A stretch of 64,000 bases of DNA from Burkholderiales bacterium (GTDB lineage: Bacteria; Pseudomonadota; Gammaproteobacteria; Burkholderiales; Ga0077523), in contig JALHMS010000015.1 of assembly GCA_022843925.1 (NCBI GenBank), positions 43,205 to 107,204 on the forward strand. Direction: 5' to 3'. Both the position numbers and the translations under genes were made by a program. The notes beneath the pieces were generated by a model. That model was not told where the DNA came from. It ran no database searches and saw only the letters and a list, made by a program, of their open reading frames with translations. Within the stretch, counting starts at the first letter, position 1; every line of letters starts with the position of its first letter. Shown piece by piece: positions 22,319-34,110 of this stretch.

Positions 22319-22570
22319 CCATGCCCGCGAAAGCGTCGGTTCCGGGTGAGGCGTTTCCCTGCATTGACCGCTTTCGGGGCCATGGGCCCCTCCTACCGGA
22401 ACCGTCGCCTCGGTTGCCCCCGTGGATGTTGCACCCTGTAGGAGCGGGCCATGCCCTTGTAGGAGCGGGCCATGCCCGCGAAAGCGTTCGTTCCGGTTGA
22501 TACGTTCCCTCGCATTGACCGCGTTCGGGGCCACGCGCCCCTCCTACAAGGCCATGGGTCCCTCCTGCAA
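22319..22570. repeat. REP family 2 cluster with nested heads
   Basis: A half BIME (22319-22396) is followed by a second pair (22438-22570). The second pair has doubled heads: GTAGGAGCGGGCCATGCCC starts at 22438 and again at 22459, and the opposite end has CTCCTAC followed 21 bp later by CTCCTGC. The cluster separates iorA from the GlcG gene and accounts for most of 22134-22576. Confidence 0.9.
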
Positions 22571-26233: not shown

Positions 26234-26313
26234 GGGGCGGGATGGTGCCTCGAAGCGGGGGCGGTGGCGAGGGTTGATGCAGCACCCGCCATGGCGATGG
26301 GCCAAGCATTTTT

Positions 26314-26402
26314 GTAGGAGCGGGCCATGCCCGCGAAAGCGATGGTTCCGGGTGAAGCGTTTCCTTGCATCGACCGCTTTCGCGGGCATGGCCCGCTCCT
26401 AC
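26314..26402. repeat. REP family 2 inverted pair (single BIME)
   Basis: This is a near-perfect pair: GTAGGAGCGGGCCATGCCCG at the left and CGGGCATGGCCCGCTCCTAC at the right, 89 bp overall. It lies between the divergent RlmN-like gene and the hypothetical gene at 26550. The two arms can pair with each other almost completely. Confidence 0.93.
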
Positions 26403-26549
26403 AAGAGCATCGCCCGAAGCCACGAGGGGACGTGCAATGGGCCCGCCGCTTGTTTTTGCGGCCCACGGCCGACCCGCTCCGACGCAACGACGCCCATGGA
26501 TTCCCGGCGTACGATCGGGGCAACGTCACCTGTCCCCCGGCGCACCCCC

Positions 26550-27069: not shown

Positions 27070-27239
27070 GCTAGGCGCCTGTCGGACTTGGGTGATCGAT
27101 AGCGAAACGGCGGGCGAGCGAGGACAGATTTTGACGATTTCGACGAACGTATCGGGAATACGTGAGGAGAAAGCGGCGGAATATGGACCGCTCTCCCACC
27201 GTTGCAGCCGAATCATCGCAAGTCCGACAGACGCCTAGC
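27070..27239. repeat. 170-bp inverted-repeat element upstream of HNH gene
   Basis: The ends are 21-bp inverted repeats with one mismatch: GCTAGGCGCCTGTCGGACTT at the left and the complement of GCTAGGCGTCTGTCGGACTT at the right. A second inner pair (AACGGCGGGCGAGCG versus AACGGTGGGAGAGCG) extends the symmetry, and the centre holds ACGTAT CGGGA ATACGT, a perfect small hairpin. The whole could fold as a rod with a terminal loop. It ends 24 bp before the HNH start, so it could be a MITE-like element or a structured 5' leader. Confidence 0.8.
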
Positions 27240-27263
27240 CACGCCCCCGCAGGAGGCAGTCGC

Positions 27264-27827
27264 ATGATCCGATGGATTCTTGCCCTCGACACCGCCGGCA
27301 CACCCCGCAACTGGGTGAGCGCGGAGACCGCAGTGGGCTACTACGCGCGGTCGCTCGTCGTCTACGGCATCGGCAAACGGCAGCTCGTCTTCCGTGGCGG
27401 GCGACAGCGCAACGGCGAGCGGTCCGTGATCCGGGTGGACAACATCATCGCGGTGCGCGGCGTCGATCACGCCAGCGCGATGTACCAGGGCGTCCCGCGG
27501 CTCTCGAATCCCAAGCTGTTCGCGCGCGACCGGCGCCTGTGCGCCTACTGCGGTGGTCGGTTCCGCACGAGCACGCTGTCCCGGGAGCACGTGGTGCCGG
27601 TGTCCCGCGGTGGACGTGACGTCTGGACGAACGTGGTGACGGCCTGCCGCGACTGCAACGCCCGCAAGAGCGACCGCACCCCCGAGGAATCCGGGATGCG
27701 GCTTCTCTACCTGCCCTACGTGCCGTCGCGCTGGGAGGACTTCATCCTCGCCAATCGCGACATCCGTGCTGACCAGATGGAGTACCTGCTGGCCAAGGTG
27801 CCGGCGGAGAGCCGGCTCAGGAACTGA
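27264..27827 (+). CDS. HNH endonuclease
   Basis: This protein has 187 residues. The HNH core lies near residues 90-140, with a zinc pair CAYC, then SREHVVPVSRGGRDVWTNVV and CRDCNARK. This gives the Cys4-zinc-supported HNH arrangement of McrA-like nucleases. The N-terminal ~85 residues (MIRWILALDTAGTPRNWV) form a separate, unrecognised domain. AGGAGG eight bases before the ATG at 27264 fixes the start. The gene lies directly after the 170-bp inverted-repeat element and has no methylase neighbour, so it is not an obvious restriction system. The target is unknown. Confidence 0.88.
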   Translation: MIRWILALDTAGTPRNWVSAETAVGYYARSLVVYGIGKRQLVFRGGRQRNGERSVIRVDNIIAVRGVDHASAMYQGVPRLSNPKLFARDRRLCAYCGGRFRTSTLSREHVVPVSRGGRDVWTNVVTACRDCNARKSDRTPEESGMRLLYLPYVPSRWEDFILANRDIRADQMEYLLAKVPAESRLRN

Positions 27828-32984: not shown

Positions 32985-34110
32985 ACAGCGGCGCGATCGA
33001 CGCGCGCGTTCCTGGACGCGCTGCTGCGCCAAAGCCATCGCGGCGTCGAGCGAAGCTCGACCCACGAAGGACCTTCGCCACTGGATTCCGCGATGCTGGA
33101 AACAACCCCCGTGGGTCGGGCTTCGCCCGACGCCTGCGCGCCCGGATTCATCGCTGCGTCCAAGCCATCGCCGCGTCGAGCGAAGCTCGACCCACGAAGG
33201 ACCTTCGCCACTGGATTCCGCGATGCTGGAAACAACCCCCGTGGGTCGGGCTCCGCCCGACGCCCGAGTTCCCGGATTCGCAGCTGAGCCCAAGCCATCG
33301 CCGCGTCGAGCGAAGCTCGACCCACGAAGGACCTTCGCCACTGGATTCCGCGATGCTGGAAACAACCCCCGTGGGTCGGGCTCCGCCCGACGCCCGAGTT
33401 CCTGGATTCGCAGCTGAGCCCAAGCCATCGCCGCGTCGAGCGAAGCTCGACCCACGAAGGACCTTCGCCACTGGATTCCGCGATGCTGGAAACAACCCCC
33501 GTGGGTCGGGCTCCGCCCGACGCCCGAGTTCCTGGATTCGCAGCTGAGCCCAAGCCATCGCCGCGTCGAGCGATGCTCGACCGACGAAGGACCTTCGCCA
33601 CTGGATTCCGCGATGCTGGAAACAACCCCCGTGGGTCGGGCTCCGCCCGACGCCCGCGTTTCTGGATTCACTGCTGTGCCCAAGCCATCGCCGCGTCGAG
33701 CGAAGCTCGACCCACGAAGGACCTTCGCCACTGGATTCCGCGATGCTGGAAACAACCCCCGTGGGTCGGGCTCCGCCCGACGCCCGCGTTCCCGGATTCG
33801 CTGCTGAGCCCAAGCCATCGCCGCGTCGAGCGATGCTCGATCCACGAAGGACCTTCGCCACTGGATTCCGCGATGCTGGAAACAACCCCCGTGGGTCGGG
33901 CTCCGCCCGACGCCCGAGTTCCTGGATTCGCAGCTGAGCCCAAGCCATCGCCGCGTCGAGCGAAGCTCGACCCACGAAAGAAGTCGCTCCTGGATTCGTT
34001 GGCGCTGGAAACAACCCCCGTGGGTCGGGCTCCGCCCGACGCCCGAGTTCCTGGATTCGCAGCTGAGCCCAAGCCATCGCCGCGTCGAGCGATGCTCGAC
34101 CCACGAAGGG
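32985..34110. repeat. BIME tandem array 2 (REP family 1, 130-bp period)
   Basis: Box A heads (GTGGGTCGGG) start at 33111, 33241, 33371, 33501, 33631, 33761 and 33891, exactly 130 bp apart, then at 34020 after 129 bp. A partial unit precedes them. Box B appears as GTCGAGCGAAGCTCGAC or GTCGAGCGATGCTCGAC, both perfect palindromes. Orientation matches array 1. The array occupies all of the gap between the convergent dctM and copA. No gene inside it is credible. Confidence 0.95.

Follow-up and report, generated by a model that had tools for sequence, protein, structure and literature searches.

MITEs are usually seen as a pair of ends to which a transposase binds, with dispensable DNA between them, and ERIC, NEMIS and REPIN-type repeats are palindromes found between genes at high copy number, whose transcripts would fold. 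ISPse1, a member of the IS1182 family, is 1653 bp long with inverted repeats matching 16/16 and a 4-bp repeat (PMC3281130). The archaeon Methanosarcina acetivorans has MITEs related to IS1182, 160 and 169 bp long (IR 25-26), with ISMac2 as partner (PMC3852290). MITEPsy1 of Pseudomonas syringae, an element of 100 nt for which transposition has been shown, duplicates 4 nt at CTAG or YTAA (PMC3189936). The window analysed here, a stretch of 64,000 nucleotides from a Burkholderiales bacterium, contains a 168-bp unit in which a core of 128 bp lies between a 16-bp terminal repeat (SAGCCTGTCGGACTTG) and its inverted copy, with CTAG at either outer end. We consider it highly probable that this unit is an IS1182-type MITE with a non-arbitrary folded core, standing beside an HNH gene by chance.

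Like IS1182-family insertion sequences, the element has CTAG on both sides, the 4-bp duplication length of ISPse1, and the terminal repeat found at six IS1182 loci, but it is only 168 bp long, lacks a transposase, and has an interior without visible similarity to IS subterminal DNA. It resembles the M. acetivorans MITEs, compared by description, in size, partner family, terminal repeats and, for one of them, a 4-bp repeat, whereas theirs is an archaeal host and the passages describing them report no conserved fold (PMC3852290). With MITEPsy1 it shares the non-autonomous nature, the CTAG target and the 4-nt duplication, whereas MITEPsy1 has IS5-type ends, a shorter length and few copies (PMC3189936). 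It is a high-copy intergenic palindrome that would fold if transcribed, as are ERIC, NEMIS and REPIN-type repeats, but sequences and ends differ, and REPs have a Y1 transposase partner (REPs: PMC2817692). The element has no Rfam match at gathering score, the only sub-threshold matches being long eukaryotic hairpin or lncRNA models, and a literature search with the arm sequence returned nothing related. At the sequence level, then, the original prediction was right that no described family fits; IS1182-related MITEs of 160-169 bp are nevertheless on record in Methanosarcina (PMC3852290).

The 21-nt arms at 27070-27090 and 27219-27239 are 95% complementary at a spacing of 128 nt, and the RNA fold of 27070-27239 reaches -103.1 kcal/mol, as against -71.6 +/- 4.7 for shuffled sequences (z -6.7); folding with DNA parameters gives z -7.3. 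The inner pairs and the central hairpin (~27147-27163) within the palindrome are real. Thus arm complementarity and fold bear out the palindrome originally described, with its terminal repeats, inner pair and central hairpin. Its description as one symmetrical unit needs only a correction of the bounds, which alignment with other copies places at 27071-27238, from CTAG to CTAG. The left CTAG (27071-27074) is the putative target site and left copy of a 4-bp direct duplication, as indicated by the agreement of flanking 4-mers and by CTAG flanking IS1182 elements. It is followed on the forward strand by the left terminal inverted repeat (27075-27090; here GCGCCTGTCGGACTTG, consensus SAGCCTGTCGGACTTG), the same repeat that bounds IS1182-family transposase genes, and by the folded core (27091-27218), matched by model R1 at 27091-27219 with 102.8 bits and folding better on the strand as written. 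Within the core, again on the forward strand, lie a conserved loop segment on the left side (27098-27105; consensus G.AGCGA, window GATAGCGA; columns 29-36 of alignment A1, up to 100% identical), the apical hairpin ACGTATCGGGAATACGT (27147-27163; helix 5, 94.6% of cells paired, with compensatory changes among copies), and, opposite the left loop segment, a conserved GCAG segment (27204-27207; columns 143-146, 91-97% identical). The right terminal inverted repeat (27219-27234) lies on the reverse strand, as judged from arm complementarity and aligned copies, and the right CTAG (27235-27238) is the putative right copy of the duplication, a reading based on the flanking 4-mers and on the corresponding site in G006, a genome of the same genus.

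The genome of the window itself (G000) contains about 27 copies with 77-95% identity to the window copy by DNA search, of full or partial length and including some fragments. Three of its copies stand in tandem at G000:C24:8060-8540; the period of this array is 164 bp, which we infer to be 168 minus one shared CTAG. Copies are also present in the relatives G006 (15 matches) and G010 and in the more distant G055 (>100) and G034. When the 21-bp arm was searched for in other genomes, as had been proposed with the original prediction, matches were found in 72 of 399 genomes of the order, including >200 in G055 and 19 in the complete genome G053; each Extensimonas genome gave ~100 or more with a query that held two kinds of element. 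A spaced two-arm pattern found at least 120 stretches in named genomes, belonging to Betaproteobacteria, Gammaproteobacteria, Zetaproteobacteria and, in a few records, to organisms given as Deltaproteobacteria, Nitrospirae, Lentisphaeria and Prosthecobacter. Such taxonomic labels are uncertain for draft metagenome bins, and the Prosthecobacter stretch lacks the typical length. No copy was found in plasmid records, phage records or viral contigs. The element is thus dispersed mobile DNA, with hundreds of copies elsewhere, in Proteobacteria and in a few other phyla. Many of the copies in G055 (e.g. L055, L057, L066) are a 205-bp version with a 39-bp insertion in the GCGGGTCAGGCAGGCAAGCCGCGTAGCGGCTGCTCG region.

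Aligned copies read CTAG, then S AGCCTGTCGGACTT, core, inverse, and CTAG. With a pattern tolerating 154-184 bp, 116 of 125 copies measured 167-169 bp. The flanking 4-mers agreed at 0.89 in 122 copies, a value inflated by the preference for CTAG, as compared with 0.02-0.27 at other lengths. Direct pairs that are not palindromic were CGAG (twice), CAAG, CTTG and CTGG, against two inverted pairs. Judged from these flanks, CTAG is the 4-bp target duplication. At L137, an empty site for this family in Extensimonas, the sequence agrees with a short target but is highly diverged. The element therefore combines the features by which MITEs are recognized, namely terminal inverted repeats, short length, no coding capacity, many dispersed copies, target-site duplication, and ends common with an autonomous partner. 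Of the readings offered originally, it is the MITE that held, through the dispersed copies, the 4-bp duplication, and the terminal repeats common to IS1182-family elements.

A second CTAG-target element was seen in Extensimonas, with ends TGTAGTGTTCGACGC, at L199 3266-3434 and other loci. It is bracketed by two CTAGs at a place where E. perlucida shows a single CTAG, and a clean empty site for it is present in G399. It often abuts the window-type element, apparently with a CTAG in common.

Transposase genes were traced in G384 and G269 from pairs of arms spaced as in an insertion sequence; their products match the IS1182 family model NF033551 (that of G269 above the cut-off) and PF01609/PF13751. 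With the G269 protein as query, matches were obtained in 6 of 34 genomes, and all six loci carry the terminal repeat of the element beside CTAG: both ends in G269, G384 and G207 (where the gene is damaged), and one end in G055, G305 and G296. Because transposase genes of the IS1182 family in six genomes are bordered by the same terminal repeats and by CTAG, a MITE of an IS1182-type transposase is the best reading. Most likely, then, the element is mobilised by such a transposase, the ends and insertion signature being read from sequence and the movement inferred. Generic IS1182 elements were considered as partner and rejected since the ends of 30 other IS1182 loci differ, those of the element being absent from all 30. 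No IS1182 gene bearing these ends was found in the genome of the window, nor in the complete genome G053 despite its 19 arm matches. By a hand count, any IS1182 gene occurs in 16 of 36 element-rich genomes and in 97 of 362 others, only a modest enrichment.

The fold of the core was examined in an alignment of 34 copies <80% identical to each other. RNAalifold predicts 66 pairs, 52 of which show changes on both sides, so that the covariation check proposed originally is strongly positive. In a direct count 91.3% of cells are paired, as compared with 72.2 +/- 0.6 for shuffles and 33-49% for slid partners, and the covariation score is 0.522 against 0.180; the structure was derived from the same sequences and is thereby favoured over its slid versions, and shuffling takes no account of relatedness; even so, the margins are very large. 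Internal loops contain many highly conserved residues (G29, G35, A36, A54, G143, C144, A145). An interior which keeps one covarying fold across many bacteria, with paired base changes numbering in the hundreds, is unusual for MITE-type elements. According to the original prediction, scattered copies far from any HNH gene and with target duplications would make this an ordinary MITE; such copies are found, and it is the covarying fold of the core that keeps the element from being ordinary.

The fold also depends on the strand. The strand as written has the more stable fold in 32 of 34 copies and, in a larger set, in 186 of 195, the difference being ~13 kcal/mol. On internal strand-neutral pairs, predicted from both strands, parsimony counts 48 changes from Watson-Crick to GU and 19 to AC (p 5e-4), or 14 against 4 when counted by pair (p 0.03), statistics which are weakened by the shared descent of the copies. 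The GU excess and the strand bias point to one strand being used in single-stranded form. Furthermore, a covariance model built from the core without the ends detects full-length elements, with matches in 48 of the phylum's genomes out of 399 searched. Most of its matches have the same ends, and in other genomes four or more loci have ends of the kind CTAGGAGGCTGTCCGAGAATAGA, so that the core is kept while the ends change; no IS-length pair of such variant ends was present among the matches listed.

These observations bear on the possible, though in our view doubtful, alternative that the element is an ordinary MITE whose palindrome is maintained by template-switch correction between its arms, with the fold unused. 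Such correction yields compensatory-looking changes without selection and agrees with the absence of gene orientation bias, but the conserved internal loops stay uncorrected to perfect pairing, strand-neutral pairs show more GU than AC intermediates, and the core also occurs with another kind of terminal repeat. A dispersed host regulatory or small RNA gene is an unlikely alternative: it would account for covariation and loop conservation as in structured RNA, and for a model without ends still finding full-length elements, but not for the variable position and neighbours, the insertion signature, the patchy presence, and the location inside terminal repeats wherever flanks are readable. Nor are the copies biased in orientation to neighbouring genes, with 56 co-directional and 41 opposed at n=195 (p 0.16), a trend at n=130 (45 vs 28, p 0.06) having weakened; the unbiased orientation gives no support for a role within host transcripts. 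Copies close to genes on both sides lie between converging pairs in 32 cases and between diverging pairs in 11, as expected if promoter insertions are lost. Still less probable is movement of the element as single-stranded DNA through a Y1/HUH transposase (of the REPIN/RAYT or IS200-like kind). Although this would explain a strand-biased structure that is palindromic and present in many copies, REPIN/RAYT-type insertion leaves no target duplication, whereas the 4-mers at both ends match here and include non-palindromic direct repeats, which Y1 transposition does not make, and the ends of the element also bound a DDE transposase.

For the IS1182-type MITE, we propose that a DDE transposase of this family, whose gene lies elsewhere or was once present in the host, would recognise the SAGCCTGTCGGACTT ends and insert the 160-bp body at CTAG, doubling those 4 bp. 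The 128-bp core is no arbitrary remnant; it is retained in the shape of a rod whose internal loops are defined and which forms better on one strand. Because it is kept in this strand-biased form, some step of the life cycle very probably uses a single-stranded form, either read-through RNA or single-stranded DNA. As a first guess, read-through transcription might yield an RNA rod that limits harm to the host or is shielded from it. It is tempting to speculate, and we do so tentatively, that the core may represent a new class of structured nucleic acid, a strand-specific rod of ~130 nt with conserved internal loops, which serves across Proteobacteria as a module of MITEs whose terminal repeats are of two or more kinds, and which is required, in the form of RNA or single-stranded DNA, if the element is to spread or be tolerated by the host. 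The kept length, loops and strand-biased fold, in many bacterial lineages and at up to ~100 copies per genome, suggest that the interior has a function, and the family offers a testable case for the success of some bacterial MITEs. The core model is searchable and annotates repeats which a first reading would otherwise credit to the adjoining gene.

The adjoining gene in the window encodes an HNH endonuclease (PF14279/PF01844; 27264-27827, forward strand) and lies outside the element. As originally noted, the element ends close before its start, ~25 bp from the ATG at 27264, with AGGAGG at 27251-27256. In G006, an HNH protein 99.5% identical and its leader, which in the window runs from 27239 on, are present without the element, so that the unit is not joined to the leader as had been thought. 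The G006 flanks abut as ..GATCGCATGGCCACGCC.., where the window reads ..GATCGCTAG, element, CTAGCCACGCC... This empty site has CATGG in place of the expected CTAG and shows the absence of the element but no exact duplication, because the target itself has diverged. Seventeen other HNH homologues in element-bearing genomes have no element within 1.5 kb, which leaves the window as the sole case in 18. Among the element loci at hand, an HNH homologue is nearby only in the window copy and in L230 (1-770), a Comamonadaceae contig where the element lies ~45 bp before it, as in the window; one such coincidence is tolerable because ~125 elements from named genomes were examined. The proposed co-occurrence with HNH genes is therefore not consistent, and the element beside this gene is a chance insertion. 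A functional tie to the HNH gene, as a structured leader RNA or as a cleavage site, is hardly tenable, since the short distance of the element from the start codon in the window and in L230 is outweighed by the G006 gene and leader without the element, the 0 of 17 other HNH loci, and the nearly universal lack of a nearby HNH homologue among copies, which already refute a general link. Neither the origin-like site cut by the HNH protein nor the leader RNA of the original prediction is thus supported; what survives of the structured element it envisaged is the covarying fold.

Two other repeats were observed in the window. A REP/REPIN-like unit occurs at 26312-26404 and 22437-22569, with a perfect 30-bp inverted repeat TTGTAGGAGCGGGCCATGCCCGCGAAAGCG and, at 26312, a 33-bp spacer; it reaches very high copy in G000 and G006, including tandem arrays with a period of ~136 bp (e.g. 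G000:C7:57948-58737). At 32998-34077, a tandem array of ~8 copies of a 130-bp unit, mostly 91-93% identical and with internal inverted repeats, is flanked by genes which, from the reading of their ORFs, were named as those of a TRAP transporter and a metal-transporting ATPase.
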